Of a stretch of DNA of 64,000 nucleotides, positions 22,711 to 48,843 are shown piece after piece; within the stretch, counting starts at the first letter, position 1, and each line of letters starts with the position of its first letter. Location of the stretch: assembly GCF_029626235.1 (NCBI RefSeq), contig NZ_JARUBO010000005.1, forward strand, positions 776,501 to 840,500, given 5' to 3'. The translations under genes and the position numbers were made by a program. This DNA comes from Micromonospora sp. WMMD1120 (lineage in GTDB: Bacteria; Actinomycetota; Actinomycetes; Mycobacteriales; Micromonosporaceae). The notes beneath the pieces are model-generated. The model saw only the letters and a list, made by a program, of their open reading frames with translations, was not told where the DNA came from and did no database searches.

Positions 22711-22726
22711 TGAACGATCGCTAAGT
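22711..22726. promoter_or_regulatory. Acyl-CoA regulon operator, copy 1 (icmA)
   Basis: TGAACGATCGCTAAGT (ACTTAGCGATCGTTCA toward icmA) lies 11 bp upstream of the likely -10 TACACT (22694-22699, minus strand), covering the -35 region. Confidence 0.8.
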
Positions 22727-22757
22727 CACGTCGAACCCATGGGTAACCGTCACCGAA

Positions 22758-23159
22758 TCAGCCGGTCGGGTCGCCCATCGCCACGTCGTCGACCCGGATG
22801 TTGACCTCGTCGACCCGCAGCCCGTACGCCTCGACGGCCTCGGTCACCCGCGCCCGCACCTCGGCGGTGATCGCCGGCACGGGCTGCCCGGCCTCGATCA
22901 CGAGCACCAGGTTGACCACTGCCGCGTCACCTGTCACATGGGCGGAGCAGCCCCGCCGGGCGTCGCCCACCTGGTCCAGCCCCACCCGGTCGAGCACCGC
23001 GTTGAAGAAGCGGGCCACATCACCGCCCAGCTCGGCCACGCCAGGCACCGCGCGGGCCGCCGCGACGGCGATCTTCTCGATCACCTCGTCGGAGACGTGC
23101 GTCGTACCGCCGGCCGGCACCGACGCCCCGGCCAACTCCTGCGTCGCCTCGTGATCCAT
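22758..23159 (-). CDS. Asp23/Gls24 (DUF322) family protein
   Basis: The product has 133 residues from the ATG at 23159, with GGGGAG upstream; the longer frame reaching 23438 is not supported. A short polar lead is followed by the Asp23 fold: HVSDEVIEKIAVAAARAVPGVAEL, a central VTGDAAVVNLVLVIEAGQPVPAI and the closing RVDEVNIRVDDVAM. Members act in cell envelope homeostasis or alkaline-shock response in Gram-positive bacteria. No membrane anchor partner (AmaP) is adjacent. It lies upstream of icmA on the same strand, but a 101-nt gap holding the icmA operator and -10 separates their transcription. Confidence 0.85.
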   Translation of the reverse strand: MDHEATQELAGASVPAGGTTHVSDEVIEKIAVAAARAVPGVAELGGDVARFFNAVLDRVGLDQVGDARRGCSAHVTGDAAVVNLVLVIEAGQPVPAITAEVRARVTEAVEAYGLRVDEVNIRVDDVAMGDPTG

Positions 23160-23532
23160 GCCCGCTCCCCTGCTCTCCGCGTCACCGCGCCGGCACACCA
23201 CCCAGCCCCGACCACGTCGGGCGGGTGCGAGCCTACCGACCTGGGGAGTCGACGGAGAACTGCGGTCGAATGTGGAACGGCGGGTCACCCGCTTCGGCTG
23301 GCCCGCCGTGTCGATGTGCTGGTGACGGTATACCTCAGAGGTATGAATATGACTGTGCGGTGTACCGCTCACGGCCGCATCCGCCCCCACGAGGCAACCA
23401 AGGGTCACCGCCGGCCGCCGGCATGGGAGCGGCGTCACCCGGTGCTGCGCGCCCAGACATCGCCGCCTGATGCCGCCGTGACCTGAGGCGGGCGGTCAGG
23501 TCGAATCTGACGCGCAGCCCCCGGTCACATCG
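23160..23532. other. Intergenic region with a perfect palindrome
   Basis: 373 nt lie between the Asp23 gene start and the end of meaB. Apart from the palindrome at 23330 there is only a 47-codon plus-strand frame (ATG at 23343) without family resemblance, which I do not call. It may be the remnant of a deleted regulator locus. Confidence 0.45.
23330..23344. promoter_or_regulatory. Perfect odd palindrome, candidate operator
   Basis: ATACCTCAGAGGTAT is perfectly symmetric about the central A. Such sequences are typical of small dimeric repressors (PadR or TetR type), but no regulator gene is adjacent. Confidence 0.5.
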
Positions 23533-24537
23533 TCAGCGGGCGAGTTGGGCGAGCAGGGTGTCCGCCGCCGCGTACGGGTCGACGCCACCGGCAGCGACGG
23601 AGGCGGCGAGCGTGCTCAACTCCGTACCGTCGCGCAGTGAGCCGATCCGGGCGCGTAGCGTGCCGAGCGCGATCGCCTCGATCTCGGCGGCGGCCCGCGC
23701 CTCCTGACGGCGGCGCAGCTCGCCGTGCTCGATCAGCCAGCCCCGATGCTTGTCGATGGCGGCGGCGATGTCGTCGATGCCTTCACCACGGGCGGCGACC
23801 GACCGGACGACCTGCGGCCGCCACTGCCCCGGCCCGCGCTCCCCGAGGGCGATCATGCCCTGGATGTCCCGGACGGTGGCGTCGACGCCGTCCCGGTCGG
23901 CCTTGTTGACCACGAACACGTCGGCGATCTCCAGGATGCCGGCCTTGACCGCCTGGATCGCGTCACCCATCCCGGGCGCGAGCAGCACCAGCGTGGTGTC
24001 GGCGAGCGAGGCGACCTCCACCTCGGCCTGGCCGACCCCGACGGTCTCCACCAGCACCACGTCGCAGCCGGCGCCCTCCAGCACCCGGACCGCCTGCGGT
24101 GTGGCCGCGGCCAGCCCGCCGAGGTGCCCCCGGCTGGACATCGAGCGGATGTAGACGCCCGGATCGGTGGCGTGGTCCTGCATCCGGACCCGGTCGCCGA
24201 GGATCGCGCCGCCGGTGAACGGGCTGGACGGGTCGACCGCCAGCACGCCGACCCGGTGCCCGCGGGCCCGCAGCGCGCGGACCAACTCGTTGGTGGTGGT
24301 CGACTTGCCCACTCCGGGCGAGCCGGTCAGCCCGACGACCTGGGCCTGCCCGGCGTACGGCGCGAGCGCCGCCGCGATGGTCGGCAGCAGCGCGTCGCCG
24401 TTCTCCACGAGCGTGATCAGCCGGGCCACCGCGCGGGGGTCGCCCGCGCGGGCCCGCTCGACCAGCAGCGGTACGTCCCGACTGCGGCGCACCGACGTTG
24501 CGCCCGCCGCCGGACCCCGCTCAGCAGCCTCGCTCAC
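23533..24537 (-). CDS. meaB: MeaB/ArgK-family GTPase, mutase chaperone
   Basis: This 334-residue protein starts at a GTG at 24537 (VSEAAERG), 53 nt after the thiolase stop; AAAGG is a weak ribosome binding site and a dispersed repeat lies in the gap. G-protein motifs are complete: P-loop GSPGVGKSTTTN, DPSSPFTGGAILGDRVRM, ETVGVGQAEVEVA, and NKAD for guanine specificity. MeaB proteins gate adenosylcobalamin loading and protect B12-dependent acyl-CoA mutases from inactivation. Here the natural clients are IcmA and Ecm, both encoded in the window. The gene probably shares a transcript with thl upstream and is then under the operator at 25807. Confidence 0.93.
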   Translation of the reverse strand: MSEAAERGPAAGATSVRRSRDVPLLVERARAGDPRAVARLITLVENGDALLPTIAAALAPYAGQAQVVGLTGSPGVGKSTTTNELVRALRARGHRVGVLAVDPSSPFTGGAILGDRVRMQDHATDPGVYIRSMSSRGHLGGLAAATPQAVRVLEGAGCDVVLVETVGVGQAEVEVASLADTTLVLLAPGMGDAIQAVKAGILEIADVFVVNKADRDGVDATVRDIQGMIALGERGPGQWRPQVVRSVAARGEGIDDIAAAIDKHRGWLIEHGELRRRQEARAAAEIEAIALGTLRARIGSLRDGTELSTLAASVAAGGVDPYAAADTLLAQLAR

Positions 24538-24554
24538 CGGTAAACCTTTGTTCG

Positions 24555-24592
24555 CGACTGCGGGCTCGCAAAACGGCTCACTCCTCGCCCTC
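24555..24592. repeat. Dispersed repeat CGACTGCGGG-CTCGC...CTCACTCCTCGC, copy 1
   Basis: This roughly 38-bp element fills the thl-meaB gap and overlaps the thl stop codon by two bases. A close second copy is at 37475, inside a gene. The flanking sequences are unrelated. Confidence 0.8.
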
Positions 24593-25775
24593 ACTGGCCC
24601 GGCACGTGGATGATCAGGGCGTCGCCCTGGCCACCGCCACCGCACAGCGCCGCCGCGCCGGTGCCACCGCCGCGCCGCCGCAACTCCAGGGCGAGGGTGA
24701 GGACGAGCCGCGCGCCGGACATGCCGATCGGGTGCCCCAGGGCGATCGCGCCACCGTTGACGTTGACAGTGTCCGGGCTGACCCCCAGGTCACGGGTGGA
24801 CTGGATGCCGACCTGGGCGAACGCCTCGTTGATCTCGATGAGGTCGAGGTCCGCCACGCTCAGGCCGCCCTTCTTCAGGGCATGGTTGATCGCGTTGGAC
24901 GGCTGCGAGTGCAGGGAGTTGTCCGGCCCGGCGACGTTGCCGTGCGCGCCGATCTCCGCCAGCCAGGTCAGCCCCAGCTCGGTGGCCTTCGCCTTGCTCA
25001 TCACGAGCACCGCGGCGGCGCCGTCGCTGATCGGCGAGGAGCTGCCGGCCGTGATGGTGCCGTCCTTGGTGAAGGCCGGCCGCAGCTTGGCCAGCGACTC
25101 GACCGTGGTGTCCGGACGGATGCCCTCGTCCTCGCTGATCACCAGCGGGTCACCCTTGCGCTGCGGGATGACCACCGGAGTGATCTCGTCGGCGAAGTGG
25201 CCGTTCTTCTGGGCGGCGGCGGCCCGCTGGTGGCTGGCTGCGGCGAAGGCGTCCTGCTCCTCGCGCGTGATGCCGTGCCGGCCGCCGAGCCGCTCGGTCG
25301 ACTCACCCATCGAGCAGCAGTCCCAGGCGTCGCTGAGCCCGTCGTGGGCCATGTGGTCCTTGACCACCACGTCGCCGTACTTGTAACCGGTGCGCTGACC
25401 CATCAGGAGGTGCGGCGCGTTGGTCATCGACTCCATGCCGCCGGCCACCACGATGTCGAACTCGCCGGCGCGGATCAGCTGGTCGGCCAGGGCGATCGCG
25501 TCCAGCCCGGAGAGGCAGACCTTGTTGATGGTCAGTGCCGGCACCGACATCGGCACGCCGGCCTCGACGGCCGCCTGCCGCGCGGGGATCTGACCGGCGC
25601 CGGCCTGCAACACCTGGCCCATGATCACGTACTGGACCTGGTCCGGGCCGACCCCGGCACGCTCCAGCGCCGCCTTGATCGCGATTCCGCCCAGCTTGGT
25701 GGCGGGGACGTCCTTGAGGTTGCCCAGCAGCCGGCCCATCGGGGTCCGCGCGCCGCTGACGATCACCGAAGCCAT
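24591..25775 (-). CDS. Acetyl-CoA acetyltransferase (thiolase)
   Basis: The enzyme has 394 residues, the usual length, from an ATG with GGAGG 6 nt upstream. Active-site residues are all present: Cys87 (INKVCLSG), His in [14 protein letters not shown] (about 350) and Cys in [10 protein letters not shown] (about 378). It condenses two acetyl-CoA to acetoacetyl-CoA, the entry step toward crotonyl-CoA, or cleaves it in reverse. The gene diverges from methylmalonyl-CoA epimerase across a 61-nt gap holding a shared operator and two promoters. meaB follows and is probably cotranscribed. A likely -10 is TACAGC at 25799-25804 on the minus strand. Confidence 0.95.
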
Positions 25776-25806
25776 GCCTGCCTCCGAGGGGGTGCCGAGC
25801 TGTACG

Positions 25807-25822
25807 CCTTAACGATTGTTCG
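25807..25822. promoter_or_regulatory. Acyl-CoA regulon operator, copy 2 (thl / mce, shared)
   Basis: CCTTAACGATTGTTCG sits between the divergent thl -10 (25799-25804) and mce -10 (25825-25830), each 2 bp away, so one bound dimer would block both. It is the least conserved of the six copies. Confidence 0.72.
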
Positions 25823-25824
25823 GC

Positions 25825-25830
25825 CAGACT
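25825..25830 (+). promoter_or_regulatory. -10 box of a leaderless mce transcript
   Basis: CAGACT is followed by six bases and then the ATG at 25837. There is no ribosome binding site, so transcription probably starts at or next to the A of ATG. Confidence 0.6.
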
Positions 25831-25836
25831 AGCGCC

Positions 25837-26313
25837 ATGGCTGAGAACTCCCCTGCCGAGCCCGGTGCGGACTACGTCACAGACATCGGGCTTCGCAAGA
25901 TTGACCATGTCGGCATCGCCGTGGCCGACCTGGACGCCGCTGTCGAGTTCTACCAGCGGACGTTCGGGATGCGCTGCGTGCACGTCGAGACCAACGCCGA
26001 GCAGGGTGTACGCGAGGCGATGCTGGCCGTCGGCCCGACCACCGAGGGCGGCTGCGTGCAACTGCTCGCTCCGCTCACCCCGGAGTCGACGATAGCGAAG
26101 TTCCTGGACCGCAACGGGCCGGGCGTGCAGCAGGTCGCGTACACGGTGGTGGATATCGACGCGGCGTGCGCGGCCCTGCGCGAGCGGGGCGTACGGCTGC
26201 TCTACGACACTCCGCGCCGGGGCACCGCGGACAGCCGGATCAACTTCGTCCACCCCAAGGACGCCGGTGGGGTCCTGATCGAACTGGTCCAACCCGCCCC
26301 CGCCGCGCACTGA
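25837..26313 (+). CDS. mce: Methylmalonyl-CoA (ethylmalonyl-CoA) epimerase
   Basis: The 158-residue protein starts at the ATG at 25837; an upstream ATG at 25816 lies inside the operator. It has the vicinal oxygen chelate fold with two beta-alpha-beta-beta-beta modules. Metal ligands include His in KIDHVGIAVADL (about residue 21), His or Gln in the central strand (GVQQVAYTV) and Glu in GVLIELVQ. It epimerises (2R)/(2S)-methylmalonyl-CoA, and homologues also act on ethylmalonyl-CoA. It therefore links Ccr carboxylation and Ecm. It is leaderless by context. A strong hairpin at 26346 ends the transcript before ccr. Confidence 0.93.
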   Translation: MAENSPAEPGADYVTDIGLRKIDHVGIAVADLDAAVEFYQRTFGMRCVHVETNAEQGVREAMLAVGPTTEGGCVQLLAPLTPESTIAKFLDRNGPGVQQVAYTVVDIDAACAALRERGVRLLYDTPRRGTADSRINFVHPKDAGGVLIELVQPAPAAH

Positions 26314-26345
26314 CCGCTGACCGCTCGAGATCCGCCCAGCTCCCG

Positions 26346-26385
26346 GGGTGTGCTGGCCTCCAGCGCGCCTGAGGCCAGCACACCC
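26346..26385 (+). terminator. Hairpin terminator after mce
   Basis: A perfect 15-bp stem (GGGTGTGCTGGCCTC and complement) with a 10-nt loop lies 33 nt after the mce stop. Confidence 0.7.
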
Positions 26386-26500
26386 GGAAGCTGCACCGGC
26401 CACGAACCGGCACCGCCAGACGCGCTTCGGTGCGCGGTAGGCCGGCTGCTCGGACACCTTCACGCATCGGCCGATGCAGTTTTTCACAGATGGCTTCCGG

Positions 26501-26516
26501 CCCTAGCTACCGTTCA
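26501..26516. promoter_or_regulatory. Acyl-CoA regulon operator, copy 3 (ccr)
   Basis: CCCTAGCTACCGTTCA is followed one base later by TAACGT (26518-26523), a possible -10, giving a ccr leader of about 115-120 nt. Confidence 0.75.
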
Positions 26517-26645
26517 GTAACGTCCGGCCCCACCGGGGCGCGACCAGTGCCGGATGTGTCGAACGGCGACATGGCGGTCGCGTCCACCGGTGCCGACGAT
26601 GGCAGCACCCAGGCCCGTACGGGTGCGGACAAACCGGAGGTCACC

Positions 26646-28001
26646 GTGCAGGACATCCTCGAAGCGATCATGGCGGCGGAAGAATCGAACGATCCGGATC
26701 GCGAGCTCGCCGGCGTCGCCGGGCTGCCCGTGCCGGAGAGCTACCGGGGCGTGGTGGTCCGCGCCGAGGAGGCCCGGATGTTCGACGGCATGGCCACCCG
26801 GGACAAGGACCCGCGCAAGGCGCTGCACGTGCAGGAGGTGCCGACGCCGGAGCTGGCGCCGGGCGAGGCGCTGGTCGCGGTGATGGCGAGCGCGATCAAC
26901 TACAACACGGTGTGGACCAGCATCTTCGAGCCGGTCAGCACCTTCCGGTTCCTGGAGCGCTACGGCCGGGTGTCCGAGCTGACCCGCCGGCACGACCTGC
27001 CGTACCACGTGGTCGGCTCGGACGCGGCGGGCGTGGTGCTGCGCACCGGCCCCGGGGTGACCCGGTGGGCGCCCGGCGACGAGGTGGTCGCGCACTGCCT
27101 CTCGGTGGAGCTGGAGGACTCGGCCGGGCACGACGACACGATGCTCGACCCGCAGCAGCGGATCTGGGGCTTCGAGACGAACTTCGGTGGGCTGGCCGAG
27201 CTGGCGGTGGTCAAGGCCAACCAGCTGATGCCCAAGCCGCGACACCTGAGCTGGGAGGAGGCGGCGAGCCCGGGGCTGGTTAACTCCACCGCGTACCGGC
27301 AGCTCGTCTCCCACCACGGCGCGAACATGAAGCAGGGCGACGTGGTGCTGATCTGGGGCGCCTCCGGCGGCCTCGGCGGGTACGCCACCCAGATGGCCCT
27401 CAACGGCGGCGCGATCCCCGTCTGCGTGGTCTCCTCGCCGGAGAAGGCCGAGCTGTGCCGGCGGATGGGCGCGGAGCTGGTCATCGACCGGGCCGCGGAG
27501 GGCTTCCGCTTCTGGCGGGACGAGGAGACCCAGGACCCGAACGAGTGGCGGCGCTTCGGTGAGCGGATCCGCGAGCTGACCGGCGGCGAGGACCCGGACA
27601 TCGTCTTCGAGCACCCGGGTCGGGAGACGTTCGGGGCGAGCGTCTACGTGGCCCGGCGCGGCGGCACCGTCGTCACCTGCGCGTCCACGAGCGGTTACCA
27701 GCACCAGTACGACAACCGTTACCTGTGGATGCACCTCAAGCGGATCATCGGCAGCCACTTCGCCAACTACCACGAGGCGTGGCAGGCCAACCGGCTGGTC
27801 GCGCTCGGCAAGGTGCACCCGACGGTGTCCCGCACCTACCCGCTGGAGCAGACCGGTCAGGCGGCGTACGAGGTGCACCGCAACGCCCACCAGGGCAAGG
27901 TCGGCGTACGCTGCCTGGCGCCCGCCGACGGCCTGGGCGTCCGCGACGGGGAGCTGCGCGCCCGACACGAGGACGCCATCAACCGGTTCCGGGGGCACTG
28001 A
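26646..28001 (+). CDS. ccr: Crotonyl-CoA carboxylase/reductase
   Basis: I choose the GTG at 26646 (VQDILEAI) because GGAGG ends 5 nt before it and the resulting 451 residues match Streptomyces Ccr. A medium-chain dehydrogenase fold has an NADPH loop (IWGASGGLGGYATQ, about 236). The four CO2-binding residues described for Kitasatospora Ccr (Asn81, Phe170, Glu171, His365) are present with a constant offset of six: Asn87, Phe176, Glu177, His371. The enzyme converts crotonyl-CoA, CO2 and NADPH to (2S)-ethylmalonyl-CoA, or to butyryl-CoA without CO2. Upstream lies the regulon operator and downstream a terminator, so it is probably a single-gene unit. Confidence 0.97.
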   Translation: MQDILEAIMAAEESNDPDRELAGVAGLPVPESYRGVVVRAEEARMFDGMATRDKDPRKALHVQEVPTPELAPGEALVAVMASAINYNTVWTSIFEPVSTFRFLERYGRVSELTRRHDLPYHVVGSDAAGVVLRTGPGVTRWAPGDEVVAHCLSVELEDSAGHDDTMLDPQQRIWGFETNFGGLAELAVVKANQLMPKPRHLSWEEAASPGLVNSTAYRQLVSHHGANMKQGDVVLIWGASGGLGGYATQMALNGGAIPVCVVSSPEKAELCRRMGAELVIDRAAEGFRFWRDEETQDPNEWRRFGERIRELTGGEDPDIVFEHPGRETFGASVYVARRGGTVVTCASTSGYQHQYDNRYLWMHLKRIIGSHFANYHEAWQANRLVALGKVHPTVSRTYPLEQTGQAAYEVHRNAHQGKVGVRCLAPADGLGVRDGELRARHEDAINRFRGH

Positions 28002-28163
28002 CCCGGGGCCGTCGGCCCGCACCGCGCCGACCGGCGCGGCGAGCCCGCCCGCGGCGCCGGCCGGCGTCGCGCGCCGGCCGGACGGGTGAACGCCGGGTGG
28101 CCAATGCGACGATCGGCGATTGTTCTTCCGCTCTCATTAGCGGAAAGTCCGGGCGGATCGAAC

Positions 28164-28196
28164 AAAGGGTCTCGGGGGTAACCCCGGGACCCTTTT
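28164..28196 (+). terminator. Intrinsic terminator after ccr
   Basis: A 14-bp stem with one mismatch (AAAGGGTCTCGGGG against CCCCGGGACCCTTT), a GTAA loop and a T-run lie about 160 nt after the ccr stop. Confidence 0.75.
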
Positions 28197-28339
28197 CCGT
28201 GTCACGCTCCGTGGCCTCCCACCCGCCGGGAGCTGCCAAGATCGCCCTTCGCCGGGAGCGCGGCGATCCGGACAGTTGACCATGTAATGAGGGCACGAAA
28301 GCTTCGCACCGCTCTTGCGAAGCACCCTGGGGCGTCTGC

Positions 28340-28345
28340 CAGTAT
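28340..28345 (+). promoter_or_regulatory. -10 box of a leaderless coiled-coil gene transcript
   Basis: CAGTAT, then six bases, then the ATG at 28352; no ribosome binding site. Confidence 0.5.
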
Positions 28346-28351
28346 GTCCCA

Positions 28352-29614: not shown

Positions 29615-29639
29615 CGCGAGGCGTCAGGCCGGGGCATCG

Positions 29640-36623: not shown

Positions 36624-38468
36624 TCAGCGGTGCGCGTGGTCGCGGAAGCCGCGGCGGGTCTTGCGACCGAGGTAGCCGGCGGTGACCAAATGCTCCAGCA
36701 GCGGCGCGGGGGCGAAACCGGGTTCACGCAGCTCCCGGTACAGCTCCCGCTGGATGGCCAGCGCGACGTCCAGCCCGACCACGTCCAGCAGCTCGAACGG
36801 ACCCATCGGGTAACCGCAGCCCAACTTCATGGCGTGGTCGATGTCGTCGGCCGTCGAGTAGCTGGCCTCCAGCATCCGGACCGCGTCGTTCAGGTACGGG
36901 AACAACAGCGCGTTGACGATGAACCCGGACCGGTCGCCGCAGACCACGCCGGTCTTGCCGAGCGCGGCGCACACCGCGCGGGCGGTGGCGACGGATTCCG
37001 GGGACGTGCGGATGGTCCGGACGACCTCGATCAGCGGCATGACCGGCGCCGGGTTGAAGAAGTGCAACCCGATCACGTCGGCCGGCCGCTGGGTCGCCAT
37101 CGCCACGTCGATCACCGGCAGCGAGGAGGTGGTGGTGGCCAGCACCACGCCCGGCTTGCAGACCTCGTCCAGGCTGGCGAAGAGCGCCTTCTTGACGCTC
37201 AACTCCTCGACCACCGCCTCGACCACCAGGTCGACGTCGGCGAGGTGGTCGAGCGTGGCCGACCAGGTGATCCGGCCGAGCGCGGCGTCCCGGTCCGCCT
37301 CGGCGAGCCGGCCGCGCACCACGCCCTTGTTCAGCGAGGTCTTCACCGCCTCGCAGACCTGCGCGGACTTCTCCATGCCACGGGTCACCGAGACGACCTC
37401 GTAGCCGGCCTTCGCGAAGACCTCGATGATGCCGGTGGCCATCGTCCCGGAACCCACGACGCCTACCCTGGTCACGACTGCGGGGCTCGCAAGCTCACTC
37501 CTCGCGCTCCCGATGCCCACCTTGGCGATGGCCCGCGCGCCGTCGGCCAGCGCGGCCTCCGTCGCGGGCGGCGTGGTCTGATCGGGTACGACCACCGGGG
37601 AGCCGGGCCGCTCGTAGGTGTAGAACCCCCGACCGGACTTCCGGCCGAGCAGTCCCGCCGTCACCATCTGCTTGAGCAGCGGCACCGGGGCGTGCCGGCG
37701 GTCCCGCCCGCCGCGCCGGTACATGGTGTCCAGGATCTCGTACGCGGTGTCCAGGCCGATCAGGTCCATCAGGGCCAGCGGCCCCATCGGCAGGCCGCAG
37801 CCGAGCTTCATCGCGGCGTCGATGTCCTCCCGGGTCGCGTAGTGCGACTCGACCATGGCGACGGCGTGGTTGAGGTAGCCGAAGAGCAGCGCGTTGGCGA
37901 TGAAACCGGCGCGGTCGTTGATGGTGACGTCGACCTTGCCGAGCCGGGCGCAGAGCGCCTCGACGTCGGCGACGACCTCGGGCGCGGTGACGACGGTACG
38001 GACCACCTCGACCAGCTTCATGACCGGCGCCGGGTTGAAGAAGTGGATGCCGATCACCTGGTTGGGTCGGCTGGTGGCGACCGAGATCTCGGTGACGCTC
38101 AGCGACGACGTGTTGGTGGCGAGGATGGTGTCCGGTCGGCAGACCCGGTCCAGCTCCGCGAAGATCCGCTGCTTCAGGTCCAGGTGCTCGGGCACGGCCT
38201 CGATGACCAGGTCGACGGAGTGCAGCGCGTCCAGCCCGACCTCGAAACGCACCCGCTCGTGCAGGGCGTCGCGGTCCGCCTCGGCGAGCTTGCCCTTGGC
38301 GACCGCCCGGTCGGTGGAGCCGGTGAGAGTGGCCCGGCCACGCTCCAGCGCCGTCGCGGAGATCTCGACGGCCACCACGTCGATGCCGTTGCGGGCGAAG
38401 ACCTCGACGATGCCGGCACCCATGGTGCCCAGCCCCACCACGCCCACGGTGCTGAACTCGCGCGCCAT
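36624..38468 (-). CDS. Double-domain 3-hydroxyacyl-CoA (3-hydroxybutyryl-CoA) dehydrogenase
   Basis: The product has 614 residues from an ATG with GGGGAGG upstream. Two complete dehydrogenase copies are joined head to tail. Each has an NAD-binding start (GVVGLGTMGAGI, residue 9; GVVGSGTMATGI, about 332), an NTSSL or TTSSL segment, the HFFNPAPVM motif with the catalytic His, and the C-terminal domain with MKLGCG(L/Y)PMGP and LGRK. It should interconvert acetoacetyl-CoA and 3-hydroxybutyryl-CoA or longer homologues. Double proteins of about 600 residues occur in Streptomyces, so the fusion is probably old. The linker near residue 320 (GSARSELASPAVVT) is encoded by a dispersed repeat. The promoter carries a regulon operator at 38501. 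Confidence 0.9.
   Translation of the reverse strand: MAREFSTVGVVGLGTMGAGIVEVFARNGIDVVAVEISATALERGRATLTGSTDRAVAKGKLAEADRDALHERVRFEVGLDALHSVDLVIEAVPEHLDLKQRIFAELDRVCRPDTILATNTSSLSVTEISVATSRPNQVIGIHFFNPAPVMKLVEVVRTVVTAPEVVADVEALCARLGKVDVTINDRAGFIANALLFGYLNHAVAMVESHYATREDIDAAMKLGCGLPMGPLALMDLIGLDTAYEILDTMYRRGGRDRRHAPVPLLKQMVTAGLLGRKSGRGFYTYERPGSPVVVPDQTTPPATEAALADGARAIAKVGIGSARSELASPAVVTRVGVVGSGTMATGIIEVFAKAGYEVVSVTRGMEKSAQVCEAVKTSLNKGVVRGRLAEADRDAALGRITWSATLDHLADVDLVVEAVVEELSVKKALFASLDEVCKPGVVLATTTSSLPVIDVAMATQRPADVIGLHFFNPAPVMPLIEVVRTIRTSPESVATARAVCAALGKTGVVCGDRSGFIVNALLFPYLNDAVRMLEASYSTADDIDHAMKLGCGYPMGPFELLDVVGLDVALAIQRELYRELREPGFAPAPLLEHLVTAGYLGRKTRRGFRDHAHR
37475..37509. repeat. Dispersed repeat CGACTGCGGGG-CTCGC-CTCACTCCTCGC, copy 2, in the dehydrogenase linker
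   Basis: This is the same element as 24555-24592 without its AAACG insert. Here it is translated in frame as part of the linker between the two dehydrogenase domains. Confidence 0.8.
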
Positions 38469-38500
38469 GACCGGCCTCCCCGGAGACTCCGTACGACCAC

Positions 38501-38516
38501 TGAACGGTCGCTAAGT
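38501..38516. promoter_or_regulatory. Acyl-CoA regulon operator, copy 4 (double hbd)
   Basis: TGAACGGTCGCTAAGT (ACTTAGCGACCGTTCA toward the gene) lies 32 bp upstream of the start, just above a possible -10 TACGGA (38488-38493). Confidence 0.8.
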
Positions 38517-41904: not shown

Positions 41905-41909
41905 GTGTC

Positions 41910-41943
41910 GGATAACCGATCATCGATGAAAATCGGTTAATCC
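41910..41943 (+). terminator. AT-rich hairpin after the aldehyde dehydrogenase gene
   Basis: GGATAACCGAT pairs with ATCGGTTAATCC (one bulge) across an 11-nt loop. It is AT-rich for this genome. Terminator role is likely but not certain. Confidence 0.45.
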
Positions 41944-41984
41944 ACATGTTTGTACGCTGTGCTCCCGGCGGTACATTGCGTTAA

Positions 41985-42644
41985 ATGGGCCCCAATCGAT
42001 TGCGCTACCGGCTTGTCGACAGTGACCAGTCGTGGAGCGCCCGACGACGTCGACATCGTTCGGACTGGTTGGCGCGCACCTTCCCGGACATCGGTGACAT
42101 GCACGTGGTCGACCTCGGTGGCCGGCTCGGCACCTGGCACCGCGCCACCGTCCGACCGGCCCGGGTGACAGTCATCAACCTGGAGCAACCGCCCGCCGTC
42201 GCGCCCGAGTGGGCCCACGTCGAACAGGCCGACGCCTGCGACCTGCCGGCACGCCTCGCCAGGGGCAGCTACGACCTGGTCTTCTCCAACTCGGTCCTGG
42301 AACACGTGGGCGGGCACGAGCGCCGGTTGCGCTTCGCCGCCACCGTCCGCACGCTCGCCGACCGGCACTGGGTGCAGACGCCCTACCGCTACTTTCCCAT
42401 CGAGCCGCACTGGATCGCGCCCGGCATGCAGTTCCTGCCGGTGCGTCTGCGCACCGCGCTGGCCCGGCGCTGGCCGCTGGGGCACAAGCCCACCCGCAGC
42501 CACGACGCCGCCATCCACCAGGTGCTCTGGACCGAACTGTTGGACAGGTCGCAGATGCGGCACTACTTCCCCGAGTCGAGCATGCTCGTCGAGCGGGTGT
42601 TCGGCCTGCCCAAGTCCCTGATCGCGGTGCGCACCGGGGGCTGA
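41985..42644 (+). CDS. Class I SAM-dependent methyltransferase
   Basis: This 219-residue protein has a Rossmann methyltransferase fold: motif I MHVVDLGGRLGTWHR (about residue 38), acidic strand end VINLEQPP, motif II VEQADACDLP, and YDLVFSNSVLEHVGGHERR (motif IV/post). These place it in the methyltransf_11/25 group acting on small molecules or lipids. Residues near WVQTPYRYFPIEPHWIAPGMQFLP match the subfamily often found in sugar or cell-wall glycan clusters. The substrate cannot be given. The start has TACATT (41972-41977) 7 nt before the ATG, indicating a leaderless mRNA. It converges with nucS. Confidence 0.82.
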   Translation: MGPNRLRYRLVDSDQSWSARRRRHRSDWLARTFPDIGDMHVVDLGGRLGTWHRATVRPARVTVINLEQPPAVAPEWAHVEQADACDLPARLARGSYDLVFSNSVLEHVGGHERRLRFAATVRTLADRHWVQTPYRYFPIEPHWIAPGMQFLPVRLRTALARRWPLGHKPTRSHDAAIHQVLWTELLDRSQMRHYFPESSMLVERVFGLPKSLIAVRTGG

Positions 42645-42666
42645 CGGCCCGTCGGCGGGCTGCCCC

Positions 42667-43326
42667 TCAGAAGAGGGTCAGCTCGTCCTTCTCGATGCCC
42701 CGCAGCCGGTCGTAGTCCACCACCACGCACCGGATGCCCCGGTCGGTGGCGAGCACCCGGGCCTGCGGCTTGATCTCCTGCGCCGCGAAGACCCCGGCGA
42801 CCGGGCTGAGCAGCGGGTCACGGTTCATCAACTCGAGGTAGCGGGTCAACTGCTCCACCCCGTCGATGTCGCCGCGCCGCTTGATCTCCACGGCGACCGC
42901 GCCCGAGTTCGCGTCCCGGCACAGCAGGTCGACCGGACCGATCGCCGTCATGTACTCCCGGCGGACCAGCGTGAACCCCTCGCCCAACACCGTCGGGTTC
43001 GCTGCCAACAACTCCTGGAGGTGCGCCTCCACCCCGTCCTTGCGCAGGCCCGGGTCCACCCCCAGCTCGTACGAGGTGTCCTGGAAGACCTCCTCCAGGG
43101 TGATCCGCAGCTCCTCGCCGGCCTTGTTGACCACCCGCCACACGCCGGGGGACTCCTCCAACCGGCACGGCGGGCTCATCCAGTTCAACGGCTTGTACGC
43201 CCGGTCGTCGGCGTGGATCGACACCGACCCGTCCGCCTTGACCATGAGCAACCGGGTGGCCGGCGGCAGGTGAGCCGAGAGCCGTCCGACGTAGTCCACC
43301 GAGCACTTCGCAATGACCAACCGCAC
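42667..43326 (-). CDS. nucS: Endonuclease NucS (mismatch-specific)
   Basis: The 219-residue protein starts at a GTG at 43326 ([20 protein letters not shown]), matching mycobacterial NucS starts. TACCCT (43333-43338) lies 6 nt upstream, so it is leaderless. The N-terminal beta domain contains [21 protein letters not shown]. The C-terminal RecB-like nuclease domain has [25 protein letters not shown] (Asp, Glu-x-Lys catalytic residues) and [10 protein letters not shown]. The C-terminus ELTLF fits a short beta-clamp binding tail. NucS performs the non-canonical mismatch repair of actinobacteria, which lack MutS/MutL. It diverges from a DUF4126 gene across 71 nt. Confidence 0.95.
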
Positions 43327-43397
43327 CCGACGAGGGTAGCCGAGCCCTGGCCGACCGCCACCGAGCGGCACTGGCGCGCCGGTGCGATGCTGAGACC

Positions 43398-44015
43398 GTG
43401 TTCGAAGTCCTCACCGGCACCGGTCTCGCCGCCTCGGCGGGGCTGAACGCCTACATTCCCCTGCTCGTCCTCGGTCTGCTCGGCCGCTACACCGACCTGA
43501 TCGATCTGCCCAGCGGCTGGACCTGGCTCGGCAACGGGTGGGTCCTCGTCATCATGGCGGCGCTGCTCGCCGTGGAGATGGTGGCGGACAAGGTGCCGGT
43601 GGTCGACCACGTCAACGACGTGGTGCAGACGGTGGTTCGTCCCACCGCCGGTGGCCTGGCCTTCGGCGCCGGCTCCTCGTCCGAGACGGTGACGGTCAGC
43701 GACCCGGGCAGCTTCTTCTCGACCCACCAGTGGGTGCCGGTGGTCACCGGCGTCCTGCTGGCGTTGGGCGTGCACCTGCTCAAGTCCGCGGCCCGCCCGG
43801 TCGTCAACGCGACCACCGCCGGGCTCGGCGCCCCGGTCGCCAGCACCGCTGAGGACGCCACCAGCGTCGTCGTCTCCCTGGTGGCGATCGTGCTGCCGGT
43901 GCTGGTGCTCGTCTTCCTGGTCGGCCTGGCGTTCTTCGTCTTCTGGTTCGTCCGCCGCCGCGCGGACCGACGCCGGGAGCGGGAGGCGGCCCGCGCCGCC
44001 GGCTTCCGCGTCTGA
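43398..44015 (+). CDS. DUF4126 membrane protein
   Basis: This 205-residue protein starts at a GTG at 43398; GATGCT 6 nt upstream may be the -10 of a leaderless mRNA. It begins [21 protein letters not shown], the hallmark of DUF4126. Helices follow at about 48-65 ([19 protein letters not shown]), 110-130 and 150-175. The [26 protein letters not shown] segment is the conserved core. The basic C-terminus ([11 protein letters not shown]) should be cytoplasmic. Function is unknown in the family. The gene shares a short divergent promoter region with nucS. Confidence 0.8.
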
Positions 44016-44031
44016 GCGCGCCGTCGGCCGG

Positions 44032-46035
44032 TCAGGGCAGGTCGTTGGCGTGCCTGATGACCGTCACCAGATCGTCGATGATGCCGGTGAGGGCGAAGTC
44101 CTTCGGGGTGAAGACCCGCGCCACCCCGGCGGCGCGGAGCGTGGCCGCGTCGCCCGGCGGGATGATGCCGCCCACGACCACCGGCAGGTCGGCGCGGCCG
44201 GCGGCGCGCAGCCCGTCGAGCACCGCGGGCACGGCGGCGAGGTGCGACCCGGAGAGCACCGACAGTCCGACCAGGTCGACATCCTCCTCGACGGCGGCGG
44301 CGACGATCTGCCCGGCGGTCAGCCGGATGCCCTGATAGACGACCTCGAAGCCGGCGTCTCGGGCGCGTACCGCGATCTGCTCCGCGCCGTTGGAGTGCCC
44401 GTCCAGGCCGGGTTTGCCCACCAGCAGTCGCAACCGTCCGCTGCCCAGCTCGCGGGCGGTGGCGGCGACCCGCGCGCGCACGGCGGCGAGGCCGGGCTCG
44501 CCGCCGCCGGTGGCGCCGGCCAGGCCGGTCGGCGCCCGGTACTCGCCGAAGACCTGCCGTAGCGCGCCGGCCCACTCGCCGGTGGTAACCCCGGCCCGTA
44601 CGCACTCCACAGTGGCCGGCATCAGGTTGACGCTGGTCGCGGCGTCCGCGCGGAGCCGGGTGAGGGCCGCGTCGACGACGGCCGCGTTCCGGTCGTCCCG
44701 CCACCGCCGTACGCCCGCGACGGCCGCCGCCTCGACCGCCGGATCGACCTGCTCGACGGCGTCGGCGCCGGTCGCCGTCAGTGGTGAGGGCTCGGTCTCG
44801 GTGTGGCGGTTCACCCCGACCACCACGTCGGCGCCGGACTCCATCCGACGGCGGCGTTCGGCCAGCGACGCGACGAGCGCGCTCTTGAGATGGCCGCTCT
44901 CCACGGCGGCGACCACGCCACCCAGCTCCAGCACCTCATTGAGCTGCGCGCGGGCCCCGCTGACGATCTCGTCGACCAGCGCGGCCATCACGTGCGAGCC
45001 GGCGAAGAGGTCGGGATATTCGAGCAGGTCCGACTCGAACGCCAGGACCTGCTGCATGCGCAGCGACCACTGCTGGTCCCAGGGGCGGGGCAGACCCAGC
45101 GCCTCGTTCCAGGCGGGCAGTTGCACAGCGCGGGCCCGGGCGTCCCGGGACATCGTCACGCCGAGCATCTCCAGCACGATGCGCTGGACGTTGTTCTCCG
45201 GCTGCGCCTCGGTGAGGCCGAGGGAGTTGACCTGCACGCCGTAGCGGAAGCGGCGCTGCTCGGCCTGACCGACGCCGTACCGGTCCCTGGTGATCTCGTC
45301 CCAGAGCACCCCGAACGCGCGCATCTTGGCGATCTCCTCGACGAAGCGCACCCCGGCGTTGACGAAGAACGAGATGCGCTGCACCACGTCGCCCATCCGT
45401 TCCGGCGGCACCTGGCCGGCGTCGCGGACCGCGTCGAGCACGGCGACAGCGGTGGCCAGCGCGAAGCCGACCTCCTGCACGGGCGTGGCGCCGGCCTCCT
45501 GGAGGTGGTACGAGCAGATGTTGACCGGGTTCCACCGGGGCATCTCCCGCAGCGTGTACGCGACCATGTCGGCGGTCAGCCGCAGCGACGCCGCCGGCGG
45601 GAAGATGTACGTGCCCCGGGACAGGTACTCCTTGACGATGTCGTTCTGGGTGGTTCCGGCGCAGCGGGCCAGGTCGCCGCCCTGCTCCAGCGCGACGGTG
45701 CCGTACAGGGCGAGCAGCCACATCGCCGGGGCGTTGATGGTCATCGAGGTGTTCATCTCGGCGAGCGGCAGACCGTCGAAGAGCGCCCGCATGTCACCGA
45801 GGTGGGCCACCGGCACGCCGACCCGCCCCACCTCACCGGCGGCGAGTTCGTGGTCCGGGTCGTACCCGGTCTGGGTCGGCAGGTCGAAGGCGACCGAGAG
45901 GCCGGTCTGCCCCTTCGCCAGGTTGCGGCGGAAGAGGGCATTGGTCGCGGCGGCCGACGAGTGGCCGGCGTAGGTGCGCATCACCCACGGGCGGTCCCGT
46001 TCGGGCAAACGCCCAGGGTATGCCGTCTCATCCAT
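44032..46035 (-). CDS. ecm: Ethylmalonyl-CoA mutase (MeaA type)
   Basis: This 667-residue enzyme carries both the TIM-barrel mutase domain (1 to about 525) and a C-terminal B12 domain with the Co ligand motif GKPGLDGHSNG (DxHxxG, about 556). The start DRPWVMRTYAGHSSAAATNALFRRNLAKG and NICSYHLQEAGATPVQE are characteristic of the MeaA/Ecm group. Tyr (RTYAGH) and Arg (YLSRGTYIFPP) fill the positions that contact the substrate carboxylate in methylmalonyl-CoA mutase, fitting a dicarboxylyl-CoA, in contrast to Phe/Gln in IcmA. It converts ethylmalonyl-CoA to methylsuccinyl-CoA. The mRNA is leaderless: TAGACT (46042-46047), six bases, ATG; the regulon operator overlaps that box. Confidence 0.92.
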   Translation of the reverse strand: MDETAYPGRLPERDRPWVMRTYAGHSSAAATNALFRRNLAKGQTGLSVAFDLPTQTGYDPDHELAAGEVGRVGVPVAHLGDMRALFDGLPLAEMNTSMTINAPAMWLLALYGTVALEQGGDLARCAGTTQNDIVKEYLSRGTYIFPPAASLRLTADMVAYTLREMPRWNPVNICSYHLQEAGATPVQEVGFALATAVAVLDAVRDAGQVPPERMGDVVQRISFFVNAGVRFVEEIAKMRAFGVLWDEITRDRYGVGQAEQRRFRYGVQVNSLGLTEAQPENNVQRIVLEMLGVTMSRDARARAVQLPAWNEALGLPRPWDQQWSLRMQQVLAFESDLLEYPDLFAGSHVMAALVDEIVSGARAQLNEVLELGGVVAAVESGHLKSALVASLAERRRRMESGADVVVGVNRHTETEPSPLTATGADAVEQVDPAVEAAAVAGVRRWRDDRNAAVVDAALTRLRADAATSVNLMPATVECVRAGVTTGEWAGALRQVFGEYRAPTGLAGATGGGEPGLAAVRARVAATARELGSGRLRLLVGKPGLDGHSNGAEQIAVRARDAGFEVVYQGIRLTAGQIVAAAVEEDVDLVGLSVLSGSHLAAVPAVLDGLRAAGRADLPVVVGGIIPPGDAATLRAAGVARVFTPKDFALTGIIDDLVTVIRHANDLP

Positions 46036-46041
46036 GACCGG

Positions 46042-46047
46042 AGTCTA
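46042..46047 (-). promoter_or_regulatory. -10 box of ecm
   Basis: TAGACT on the minus strand lies six bases before the ATG at 46035. The operator at 46044-46059 covers most of it. Confidence 0.7.
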
Positions 46048-46059
46048 AGTTACCGTTCA
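46044..46059. promoter_or_regulatory. Acyl-CoA regulon operator, copy 5 (ecm)
   Basis: TCTAAGTTACCGTTCA on the plus strand (TGAACGGTAACTTAGA toward ecm) overlaps the -10 box, ideal for repression. Confidence 0.78.
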
Positions 46060-46186
46060 GTAGAAGTGGCTGTGCAAAACCACACAGCTCCATGTCGGGG
46101 ACGTCCGGGTGGCAAGCGCCCACCCTGTCGTGCACCGCCACACCCCGGCCACCCACCCGTCACCGCCAGGACGCACACTTGACGGC

Positions 46187-47038
46187 ATGGATGACGAGCT
46201 GGCCATCTCCGTCCGAGGGCTGCGCAAGGCGTACGGCGACAACGTGGCGGTGGCGGGCGTGGATCTCGACGTCCACCGCGGTGAGGTGTTCGCGCTGCTC
46301 GGCCCGAACGGGGCCGGCAAGACCACAACGGTCGAGATCCTGGAGGGCTACCGCCACCGCGACGCCGGCGAGGTGCGGGTGCTCGGCACCGACCCGGCGC
46401 AGCCGGATGCCGGCTGGCGCTCCCGGGTCGGCATCGTGCTCCAGGGCACCGGTGAGTTCGACGAGCTGACCGTCGCCGAGGTGATCAGGCACTTCTCCGG
46501 CTTCTACCCGGATGCCGACGACCCGGACAAGGTGATCGAGCGGGTCGGCCTGGCCGGCAAGGCCAGAGCCCGGACGCACACCCTCTCCGGCGGGCAGAAG
46601 CGCCGCCTCGACGTGGCGCTGGGCATCATCGGCCGCCCCGAGCTGCTCTTCCTCGACGAACCGACCACCGGCTTCGACCCGGAGGCTCGCCGCGAGTTCT
46701 GGGAGCTGATCCGCGACCTGGCGGCGGCCGGCACCACAATCGTGCTGACCACCCACTACCTGGACGAGGCGGAGGCGCTCGCCGACCGGGTCGGCGTGAT
46801 CGCCGGCGGCAGACTGGTCGAGGTGGCCGCCCCGAGCCGGCTGGGCAACCGGCAGGAGGCGCTGGCGACGGTCTCCTGGCGTACCCCGGACGGGACGGTG
46901 GAGAGCACGCAGAGCGCGACGCCGACGGCGGTGGTGGCCGACCTGGCCGCGCGCTTCGGCGGCGAGATCCCGGGGATCACCGTGACCCGGCCGACCCTGG
47001 AGGACGTCTACCTCACGATGATCGGACACGCGCGATGA
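46187..47038 (+). CDS. ABC-2 type exporter ATP-binding protein
   Basis: The product has 283 residues from the ATG at 46187, with CACACT (46174-46179) 7 nt upstream as a likely leaderless -10; the earlier ATG at 46109 is not family-like. It has a complete ABC ATPase: Walker A GPNGAGKTTT, Q-loop VLQGTGEFDELT, signature LSGGQKRR, Walker B LLFLDEP, and H-loop TTHYLDEAEALADRV. The order and C-terminal extension (VTRPTLEDVYLTMIG) match DrrA-like drug or lipid exporters. The permease gene overlaps by 4 nt. The substrate is unknown. The spacer to ecm holds both promoters and the ecm operator. Confidence 0.93.
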   Translation: MDDELAISVRGLRKAYGDNVAVAGVDLDVHRGEVFALLGPNGAGKTTTVEILEGYRHRDAGEVRVLGTDPAQPDAGWRSRVGIVLQGTGEFDELTVAEVIRHFSGFYPDADDPDKVIERVGLAGKARARTHTLSGGQKRRLDVALGIIGRPELLFLDEPTTGFDPEARREFWELIRDLAAAGTTIVLTTHYLDEAEALADRVGVIAGGRLVEVAAPSRLGNRQEALATVSWRTPDGTVESTQSATPTAVVADLAARFGGEIPGITVTRPTLEDVYLTMIGHAR

Positions 47039-47880
47039 CGACCACGACGAAGCCGGCGACGCCGGTGGCCACCGCCCCGGGTCGTCGGCTGGGCGCCGGC
47101 ACGCTCGCGGTACGCCAGGGCCGGCTGGAGATCACCCAGTTCCTGCGCAGCCGGGAGTCGGTGGTCTTCACCATGGGCTTCCCCATCATCATGATCCTGA
47201 TCTTCGCGTCGATCTTCGACGGCACGATCGGCGGCGGGGTCAGGTTCACCCAGTACTTCATCACCGGGATGATCGCGACCGGCCTGATGACGGTGAGCTT
47301 CCAGAACCTCGGCATCTGGATCCCGATCGAGCGGGACCGCGGCGTGCTCAAGCGCTACCGGGGCACGCCGATGCCGAAGTGGGTCTGGTTCGCCGGCAAG
47401 GTGATCATGGTGGTGGCGATCGGCATCGCCGAGACCGCGCTGCTGCTGGCCTTCGCGGTGGCGCTGTTCGACCTCGACCTGCCCGGCACCGCCGGGAAGT
47501 GGCTCACCTTCGGCTGGGTCGCCGTGCTCGGGGTGACAGCGTGCACCCTGTGCGGCATCGCCATCTCATCGCTGGCCCGTACCGCCCGCAGCGGCTCGGC
47601 GGTGGTCACCCCGGTCTCCCTGATCCTCCAGTTCATCTCCGGGGTGTTCTTCGTCTTCACCGACCTGCCCACCTGGATGCAGCAGGTGGCGGCGCTGTTC
47701 CCGCTCAAGTGGATGTGCCAGGGACTGCGGTCGGTCTTCCTGCCGGAGAGCTTCGGCGCGCAGGAGCCGGGCGGCTCGTTCGAGCTGGGCCGGGTGGCGC
47801 TGGTGCTCGCCCTGTGGTGCGTGATCGGCCTGGTGCTCTGCCTGACCACCTTCCGCTGGACCACCAAGCGCGACGGCTGA
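47035..47880 (+). CDS. ABC-2 type exporter permease
   Basis: The 281-residue protein starts at an ATG overlapping the ATPase stop (ATGA), so the two are translationally coupled. Six membrane helices of the ABC2_membrane type are visible, including SVVFTMGFPIIMILIFASIFDG near the start, FTQYFITGMIATGLMTVSF, the QNLGIWIPIERDRGVLKRYRG coupling region, the SLILQFISGVFFVFTDLP re-entrant loop typical of the family, and a final WCVIGLVLCLTTFRW. It pairs with the upstream ATPase as a homodimeric half exporter. It converges with the hbd gene, 46 nt apart. Confidence 0.92.
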   Translation: MTTTTKPATPVATAPGRRLGAGTLAVRQGRLEITQFLRSRESVVFTMGFPIIMILIFASIFDGTIGGGVRFTQYFITGMIATGLMTVSFQNLGIWIPIERDRGVLKRYRGTPMPKWVWFAGKVIMVVAIGIAETALLLAFAVALFDLDLPGTAGKWLTFGWVAVLGVTACTLCGIAISSLARTARSGSAVVTPVSLILQFISGVFFVFTDLPTWMQQVAALFPLKWMCQGLRSVFLPESFGAQEPGGSFELGRVALVLALWCVIGLVLCLTTFRWTTKRDG

Positions 47881-47926
47881 GCACGGACGACCGGGGCGGA
47901 GTGACCCCCGCCCCGGTCGAGGCGAC

Positions 47927-48775
47927 TCAGTACGTGTAGAAGCCCTTGCCGGTCTTGCGGCCCAGGTCGCCGGCGGTGGCCATCCGCTGGAGCAGCTCCG
48001 GCGGGAAGAACTTCTCGTCGCCGGTGTCGGTGTAGATGTTCCGCGTCGCGTTCAGCAACACGTCCACCCCGGTCAGGTCGATGGTGGCCAGCGGACCCAT
48101 GGCGTGCCCGAAGCCGAGCCGGCAGGCGGTGTCCAGGTCCTCCGCGGACACCACGCCCGACTCGACGAGCTTGACCGCCTCCATCACCAGGGCCGAGATC
48201 AGCCGGGTCGTGACGAAACCGGCGATGTCCCGGTTGACCACCACCACCGTCTTGCCGATCTCCTCGGCGAAGGCCCGCGCGGTGTCCAGCGTGGCGTCGC
48301 TGGTCTTGTAGCCGCGCACCAGCTCGCAGAGCTGCATCATCGGCACCGGGGAGAAGAAGTGGGTGCCGACGACCGCCTCGGGCCGCTCGGTCACCGCGGC
48401 GATCTGGGTGACCGGAATGGCCGAGGTGTTGGTGGCGAGGACCGCGTCCGCCCTGCAGATCTTGTCCAGGGCGCGGAACACCTCGTGCTTGATCTCCAGC
48501 CGCTCGAAGACAGCCTCGACCACGATGTCCGCGTCCGCCGCCGCCTCCAGGTCGGTGGTCGGGGTGATCCGGGCCAGCGTCGCCTCGACCTCGGACGCCT
48601 CGATCCTGCCCTTCTCGGCGAACTTCGTCAGTGACTTCCGGATGCCGTCCAGACCCCGTGTGGTGGCCGCGTCGTCCAGGTCGCGCAGCGTCACCTGCCA
48701 GCCCGCCTGCGCCGCCACCTGGGCGATGCCGGAGCCCATCAGCCCGGCCCCGACGACCGCGAGTCGACCCGCCAT
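47927..48775 (-). CDS. hbd: 3-hydroxybutyryl-CoA dehydrogenase
   Basis: The enzyme has 282 residues, the single-domain FadB2/Hbd length, from an ATG with GGGAGAAG upstream. It has NAD-binding LAVVGAGLMGSGIAQV, a VEAVFERLEIKHEVF segment, NTSAIPVTQIA, the catalytic His motif GTHFFSPVPMMQLCELV, and a C-terminal domain with CRLGFGHAMGPLATIDLTGVDV and LGRKTGKGFYTY. It reduces acetoacetyl-CoA to 3-hydroxybutyryl-CoA with NAD(P)H, the step between thiolase and a crotonase. It is a second, single-domain counterpart of the double enzyme at 36.6 kb. The promoter has TAGGGT (48812-48817) with a regulon operator 10 bp above it. Confidence 0.95.
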   Translation of the reverse strand: MAGRLAVVGAGLMGSGIAQVAAQAGWQVTLRDLDDAATTRGLDGIRKSLTKFAEKGRIEASEVEATLARITPTTDLEAAADADIVVEAVFERLEIKHEVFRALDKICRADAVLATNTSAIPVTQIAAVTERPEAVVGTHFFSPVPMMQLCELVRGYKTSDATLDTARAFAEEIGKTVVVVNRDIAGFVTTRLISALVMEAVKLVESGVVSAEDLDTACRLGFGHAMGPLATIDLTGVDVLLNATRNIYTDTGDEKFFPPELLQRMATAGDLGRKTGKGFYTY

Positions 48776-48827
48776 CTACTTCTCCCTCGCTGCGATTGAG
48801 TGCCTGCCTGCACCCTAGTCCGCGAGC

Positions 48828-48843
48828 TGAACGATGGCTAAGT
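48828..48843. promoter_or_regulatory. Acyl-CoA regulon operator, copy 6 (hbd)
   Basis: TGAACGATGGCTAAGT (ACTTAGCCATCGTTCA toward hbd) lies 10 bp above the likely -10 TAGGGT (48812-48817, minus strand). Confidence 0.8.

Follow-up and report, generated by a model that had tools for sequence, protein, structure and literature searches.

What controls the acyl-coenzyme A (acyl-CoA) genes that lie scattered over a 26-kb part of a Micromonospora genome? The question is raised by a 64,000-nucleotide stretch of Micromonospora sp. WMMD1120 (Micromonosporaceae), here called the window, at G000:C5:776501-840500 of the 7.15-Mb genome. A sequence-only reading of the window had proposed that a 16-bp quasi-palindrome marks six promoters of acyl-CoA genes and that one TetR-type regulator, encoded elsewhere, binds there. 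As judged from comparison of sequences, a single dimeric repressor of the TetR type very probably uses the six sites as its operators; the candidate, related to but diverged from BkaR and AccR, is encoded at G000:C5:1973415-1973960.

Six conserved dyads at acyl-CoA gene promoters

All six 16-mers were found where they had been placed. The icmA site (CTTAGCGATCGTTCAG, 22710..22725, minus strand) and the hbd2 site (CTTAGCGACCGTTCAG, 38500..38515, minus strand), upstream of the double hbd gene, match the consensus pattern without mismatch, and the hbd site (CTTAGCCATCGTTCAG, 48827..48842, minus strand), upstream of hbd, has one mismatch. The thl/mce site (CTTAACGATTGTTCGG, 25808..25823, plus strand) is a single site common to the divergent thl and mce genes, lying between them and overlapping the mce promoter; a second dyad, CGAACGATCGTTCG, occurs at mce in the genomes G022 and G033. 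The ccr site (CCTAGCTACCGTTCAG, 26502..26517, plus strand) is upstream of ccr. The ecm site (CTAAGTTACCGTTCAG, 46045..46060, plus strand), between ecm and a divergent ATP-binding cassette (ABC) transporter gene, is weaker, with 11 of 14 dyad positions.

At least 13 matches of 16 had been claimed for four sites; five reach this number, thl/mce being the additional one, and ecm falls below it. The positions called invariant are invariant, as is A at position 5. The quasi-palindrome stands with a shifted frame, the dyad axis being one base further on. The element is thus the 16-bp dyad CTKARCGNNCGYTMAG, in which the half-sites CTTAGC, CTTAAC and CTGAAC are interchangeable.

Promoter boxes were assigned by eye. 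The dyad overlaps or abuts -10 boxes at ecm, mce and a fadE-like gene, falls in the start region at hbd2, and lies in the -35 region at icmA and at the TetR gene described below. At icmA its end is 11 bases 5′ of a TACACT box, and at ecm it overlaps the TAGACT-N6-ATG promoter. Because the dyads are placed at core promoters, they fit a repressor.

When the genome was searched with the pattern MCTTAGCGAYCGTTCA at up to three mismatches, 33 + 32 matches were obtained, compared with 16 + 16 for a reversed-pattern control. The sole matches with 0, 0 and 1 mismatch genome-wide are the icmA, hbd2 and hbd sites of the window. Three places elsewhere in the genome equal the ccr site in having two mismatches; of these, L005 and L007 are inside long open frames. 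The thl/mce site has three mismatches, as have many chance matches, and the ecm site, with four mismatches by eye, is outside this list. Rank alone therefore supports just icmA, hbd2 and hbd, and the thl/mce, ccr and ecm sites rest on conservation.

Conservation was scored in 19 other Micromonospora genomes with a matrix learned on the window sites alone, and a gene was counted if its alignment started by residue 60 (leaving n = 11 for ccr and n = 1 for asp23). Sites of at least 14 bits precede icmA in 19/19, hbd2 in 19/19, thl in 18/19 and mce in 17/19 genomes, the last two counts resting on one site, as well as ccr in 11/11, ecm in 14/15 (missing in G015) and hbd in 15/18. At a threshold of 11 bits, the hbd site is found in 18/18 relatives. 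Twelve neighboring genes served as controls in the same 19 genomes, abcA being excluded as it has the ecm site in common; none of their 185 instances reaches 14 bits, and 2 reach 11 bits. Out of 106 strong sites, 2 are off target when positions -200 to +320 around target starts are counted and a conserved match inside mce is taken as near a target. Two earlier expectations were thereby borne out, namely that unrelated neighbors lack the motif and that related species conserve the sites where the genes persist.

The sites were also compared with their 20-base flanks, ungapped and over 19 same-genus relatives unless a smaller number is stated. The icmA site is identical at 16/16 positions in 19/19 relatives, with flanks 57% and 62% identical. 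Identity is 85% versus 23% and 42% for hbd2, 86% versus 36% and 21% for hbd (18 relatives), 97% versus 91% and 80% for mce, 97% versus 83% and 85% for ccr (15 relatives), and 97% versus 86% and 77% for ecm (14 relatives). Because the flanks of the last three are themselves 77-91% identical, the contrast is weak for each of these taken singly. Of the 19 relatives, 15 have ccr at the locus, and the ccr dyad is present in all 15. Where ccr is absent from the locus, as judged in the syntenic region only (G006, G008, G012 and G036, the last three lacking ecm also), the remaining genes keep their sites. The six sites are thus confirmed as real, strongly conserved elements.

Sites beyond the window

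With CTKARCGNNCGYTMRG and no mismatch, 38/38 Micromonospora genomes gave matches (3-12 strand matches each versus 0-4 for the reversed pattern). The dyad with an AT center was found in 112/121 Micromonosporaceae genomes and 40/44 genera, and its reversed control gave 0 matches. Gene names outside the window were given by eye from translations unless a family model is named, and the recurrence of single sites is that among the matches listed. On this basis, dyads stand upstream of ilvE and of the alpha gene of an acyl-CoA carboxylase in G000 (the genome of the window), G022, G032 and G006. In the same four genomes a dyad, with one mismatch in G000, precedes a carboxyltransferase gene that is followed by an acyl-CoA dehydrogenase gene. 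A zinc-binding dehydrogenase gene is so preceded in G000, G022 and G032, not in G006. The dyad precedes ppdK in 29/30 cases, and at the fadE-like acyl-CoA dehydrogenase gene it matches at least 11 of 14 positions in 28/30 cases versus 145/3000 background windows. The regulon is genome-wide, not confined to the 26-kb stretch; the earlier proposal of a regulon is supported except for its restriction to that stretch, as conserved sites precede ppdK, fadE-like, ilvE and carboxylase genes elsewhere. Breakdown of branched-chain and fatty acids to acyl-CoA may, as we infer from the gene set, lead through the ethylmalonyl-CoA carboxylation route to gluconeogenesis by pyruvate phosphate dikinase (PPDK).

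At L078 (G000:C5:2956000-2963000), PadR and ABC transporter genes are divergent from the acyl-CoA carboxylase alpha gene, with a common dyad region, and this gene order is repeated in G022, G032 and G006. The PadR gene was set aside as a regulator, since it is seen at that one site only.

A chance origin was rejected for the pattern matches in family f5, where locus L011 has CTGAGCGATCGTTCAG directly 5′ of a 69% identical hbd2 relative. No searched window gene is present at the matches L010 and L076 (f5, G040) or L009 and L077 (f13, G048). Among 80 named ecm loci taken from a longer list, dyads of at least 13 positions of either type occur at 6/10 Micromonosporaceae loci and 4/70 others. Two of these four precede pathway genes, GTTAGCGTCGGTTAAC before ecm at L296 (Sciscionella) and GTTAACGATCGTTAAC before a ccr-like gene at L317 (uncultured actinomycete); those of L266 and L283 look like chance. 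With just 4/70, the ethylmalonyl-type loci of other actinobacteria were rejected as regulon members.

A BkaR/AccR-like TetR as candidate regulator

The candidate gene is ~1.13 Mb beyond the window and ~18 kb from the G000 dyad that precedes the carboxyltransferase gene. In G022 the order is TetR, dyad, biotin carboxylase, 3-hydroxy-3-methylglutaryl-CoA (HMG-CoA) lyase, second dyad, carboxyltransferase and acyl-CoA dehydrogenase. In both G022 and G032, TetR adjoins the biotin carboxylase and HMG-CoA lyase genes (names by eye), a neighborhood resembling those reported for BkaR (PMC3920632) and AccR (PMC10933834); these and the other cited papers are drawn on from excerpts. The G022 protein matches PF00440 with 62.2 bits and PF17932 with 30.3 bits, both above the cut-off, and so has the N-terminal DNA-binding and C-terminal domains of a TetR. 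Matches to this TetR were obtained in 115/121 Micromonosporaceae genomes. Among the six genomes with no such match, three (G065, G093 and G118) have no dyad either.

The dyad was then sought at the regulator gene in the 30 best-scoring family loci, which were chosen regardless of operators. In 16/30, the TetR gene has the dyad in its own promoter at 13 or 14 of 14 positions, compared with 3 matches in 100,146 other positions and 1/9000 shuffled promoters. These promoters of sister-genus relatives support one TetR-type regulator encoded outside the window. The own-promoter site that an autoregulated TetR gene would have, as had been anticipated, is found in other genera of the family and in 0/4 Micromonospora genomes examined.

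A variant of a published operator

Outside Micromonosporaceae, promoters of the same TetR have GTTA-N8-TAAC in the same 16-bp register at most loci examined; some Arg57 loci, including L338 and L342, have no clear dyad in this comparison. In family f8 they contain GTTAATGACGACTAAC, the core of a published Mycobacterium smegmatis BkaR operator (excerpt of PMC3920632). With GTTARCGNNCGYTAAC and no mismatch, matches were obtained in 12/121 genomes of the order, and in 10 of them the match is within 100 bp 5′ of the match to this TetR. The remaining ones are ~350 bp from the TetR match in G228 and on another contig in G260. Micromonosporaceae sites have outer C..G (CTKA..TMAG), not GTTA-N8-TAAC; the register and the inner bases agree. 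Because GTTA-N8-TAAC stands in the same register at the relatives' promoters, the window operator is read as a BkaR/AccR operator in which C has replaced the outer G and position 3 is less strict, and for the same reason the notion of an unrelated BkaR operator was rejected. Thus, an operator for which no published counterpart had been known to the sequence-only reading appears to be a variant of one, as far as the excerpts describe it. Among open-licence PMC papers, we found no publication on this operator itself and none that describes regulation of ccr or ecm by a TetR protein in actinobacteria.

Mycobacterial BkaR (MSMEG_4718; operator GTTA-N-T-N4-A-N-TAAC) is alike in its TetR type, 16-bp dyad register, own-promoter sites and neighboring acyl-CoA carboxylase genes (PMC3920632). 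It differs in having outer G, not C, and in the Arg57 of f8 relatives. Its reported regulon also differs, comprising branched-chain keto-acid genes, ~10 in M. smegmatis, and the excerpt does not name ccr, ecm or icm (PMC3920632). AccR of Streptomyces avermitilis has the motif GTTAA-N6-TTAAC and represses accD1A1-hmgL-fadE4, echA8, echA9 and fadE2 (PMC10933834), with methylcrotonyl-, propionyl- and acetyl-CoA as reported ligands (PMC8546615). Compared by operator and description, AccR is likewise a repressor of the TetR type, acting on accD1A1-hmgL-fadE4 and on fadE/echA genes (PMC10933834, PMC8546615); it is unlike in its outer G, and ccr, ecm, icmA and ppdK are not among the targets named in those excerpts.

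Covariation of recognition helix and operator

We compared helix positions 57 and 51 of the TetR proteins with the operator arms. Position 57 is His in 47/47 aligned Micromonosporaceae proteins and Arg in 30/30 from families f7, f8, f12 and f15; position 51 is Thr in Micromonosporaceae versus Ser in the same four families. The arm counts include more families; they omit L121 and L239, have no recognized helix for L182, L196 and L197, skip loci with short upstream regions and collapse identical sites. Arg/Lys57 goes with outer G in 74/74 arms and His57 with outer C in 29/40, one His57 site (L203) being possibly noise. At position 3, the base is T in 56/62 arms with Ser51 and G in 33/52 arms with Thr51. 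Family f16 (Thr51, Arg57) is intermediate: its outer base is G, and position 3 is mostly G as well. The one f13 TetR with His57 has CTGAACGGCCGTTCAG. The 46 proteins with a recognized His57 group in a single clade (support 0.75), in which the f5 and f13 proteins are nested within those of Micromonosporaceae.

Proposed repression and its alternatives

In the mechanism we propose, a TetR dimer would bind the dyad CTKARCGNNCGYTMAG, 16 bp long, on the core promoter or next to it. By analogy with characterized relatives, the bound dimer would block transcription, and a short-chain acyl-CoA would release it. In Micromonosporaceae the helix (Arg/Lys57 to His57, Ser51 to Thr51) and the operator (outer G to C, position 3 from T to T or G) would have changed together. 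The regulon would include thl, hbd, ccr, ecm, mce, icmA, ppdK and ilvE, as well as acyl-CoA carboxylase and acyl-CoA dehydrogenase genes. The regulator then seems to control the cell's use of acetyl-CoA and branched-chain acyl-CoA.

Several observations weigh against this account. No TetR match in the 121 family genomes exceeds the NF050111 (SACE_7040 family) cut-off, compared with 115/249 in genomes of the order; the scores are 228.8 bits in G022 and 223.2 bits in G000 at a cut-off of 250, this model being taken to cover BkaR via operator identity in f8, not via the BkaR protein sequence. The own-promoter dyad is absent in 4/4 Micromonospora genomes examined (G000, G012, G022 and G032) and from 14/30 family TetR loci overall. 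G063, G122 and G153, which are incomplete or fragmented drafts, have dyads and no TetR match. G000 has 56 TetR matches, one of which is characterized here as a candidate. As for the helix, 11/40 His57 arms are without outer C (T in 3, G in 5, A in 3), and the f5 TetR with His57 has ATTAACGACCGTTCAC in its promoter, an exception to outer C. Moreover, His57 arises once on the tree, so that the covariation is a single event; a recognition code linking residue 57 to the outer base is accordingly offered as a hypothesis.

The same TetR might bind and activate, or do both, at some promoters, which we consider unlikely. The icmA dyad, in the -35 region 11 bases above the TACACT box, is by eye at a class II activator position. 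A TetR regulator of ccr, CcrR of Methylobacterium extorquens, is reportedly an activator (known from a title only), in which it differs, as it does in being proteobacterial. Variable distances between dyad and promoter argue for repression instead, as does the position (by eye) of the ecm and mce dyads over -10 boxes and of the hbd2 dyad close to the start. BkaR (PMC3920632) and AccR (PMC10933834) are both reported as repressors in the excerpts.

Binding of the sites by a different TetR, such as a SAV7471-type regulator of CoA metabolism, appears quite unlikely. SAV7471 of S. avermitilis, a TetR-type protein compared by its operator alone, has in GAGAACSWWCGTTCTC the same inner GAACG..CGTTC (excerpt of PMC10933834), and the 56 TetR matches in G000 leave other candidates. 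Yet its outer GA..TC is in none of the six dyads, and the own-promoter dyads at 16/30 family loci point to the BkaR/AccR-like TetR rather than a different one. Another TetR gene of G000 (match at 876924) has two tandem palindromes CTGACCGATCGGTCAG just 5′ of it (L080, G000:C5:876827-876861), which are probably its own operator.

A promoter element or a compositional coincidence is hardly credible as an explanation of the motif: the sites are at promoters, with 77-91% identical flanks at mce, ccr and ecm, but the dyad symmetry, the interchangeable half-sites, the variable distance to -10 boxes, the 0/185 controls and the empty reversed control in 121 genomes all argue for an operator.

Putative target genes in the window

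Reading along the window, icmA (20968..22656, minus strand; probable start ATG 22656) encodes an acyl-CoA mutase large subunit with 660.7 bits to TIGR00641, a domain model; its isobutyryl-CoA assignment is that of the sequence-only reading. The thl gene (24591..25775, minus strand) encodes an acetyl-CoA C-acyltransferase (TIGR01930, 460.8 bits) and mce (25816..26313, plus strand) a methylmalonyl-CoA epimerase (TIGR03081, 139.1 bits), both above the cut-off; the true mce start is probably the ATG immediately 3′ of the site. The ccr gene (26547..28001, plus strand) encodes crotonyl-CoA carboxylase/reductase (TIGR01751, 614.2 bits, above the cut-off), with an approximate start for which GTG 26547, GTG 26556 and ATG 26571 are in-frame candidates. 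In hbd2 (36624..38468, minus strand), two 3-hydroxybutyryl-CoA dehydrogenase modules are joined in one protein, as two stretches match NF005875. The ecm gene (44032..46035, minus strand) encodes a methylmalonyl-CoA-mutase-type protein, above the cut-off of TIGR00641 and TIGR00640; these models cover the mutase type generally, and 'ethylmalonyl' is again the earlier assignment. The hbd gene (47927..48775, minus strand) encodes a 3-hydroxyacyl-CoA dehydrogenase (PF02737, PF00725).

ccr and isocitrate lyase

Isocitrate lyase is present in all four footprinted genomes without ccr at the locus (G006, G008, G012 and G036). The 15 footprinted genomes with ccr have 0 full isocitrate lyase matches, G011 having one fragment (E 1.1e-11). 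A two-piece isocitrate lyase match was obtained in 8/37 Micromonospora genomes. The ethylmalonyl-CoA pathway and the glyoxylate shunt look mutually exclusive in Micromonospora. Isocitrate lyase was rejected as a regulon member, the best dyad in 8 loci reaching at most 12/14 positions (none at least 13).

A helix-turn-helix regulator gene of ~465-525 residues, RamB-like by eye, is near isocitrate lyase in 8/8 loci (L413-L420). RamB and PccR (ScfR family) likewise regulate acetyl-/propionyl-CoA assimilation, but they are not of the TetR family; RamB links the ethylmalonyl-CoA pathway with the glyoxylate cycle (excerpt of PMC10370305). Incidentally, hbd2 is clearly more distant in the four ccr-less genomes, with 73-75% identity versus 85-93% in the other 15.

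Implications

In our best reading, the Micromonosporaceae variant belongs to the known BkaR/AccR operator type, and its regulon would include the ethylmalonyl-CoA genes. We lean, with little more than even confidence, to a broader view. A BkaR/AccR-like repressor and all of its operators would have been re-coded jointly, the recognition helix by replacement of Arg57 with His and of Ser51 with Thr, the operators by a change of outer G to C. The repressor would have become the master switch of acetyl-CoA assimilation via the ethylmalonyl-CoA pathway and PPDK, and Micromonospora lineages that lost ccr would have isocitrate lyase without the operator.

If true, the re-coding is a natural case of coordinated operator change over about a dozen promoters. 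The specific residue-to-base prediction makes such a joint change of repressor and operator set directly testable. Micromonosporaceae, a major source of antibiotics, would gain a candidate regulator of the methylmalonyl-, ethylmalonyl- and isobutyryl-CoA pools that feed polyketide synthesis.

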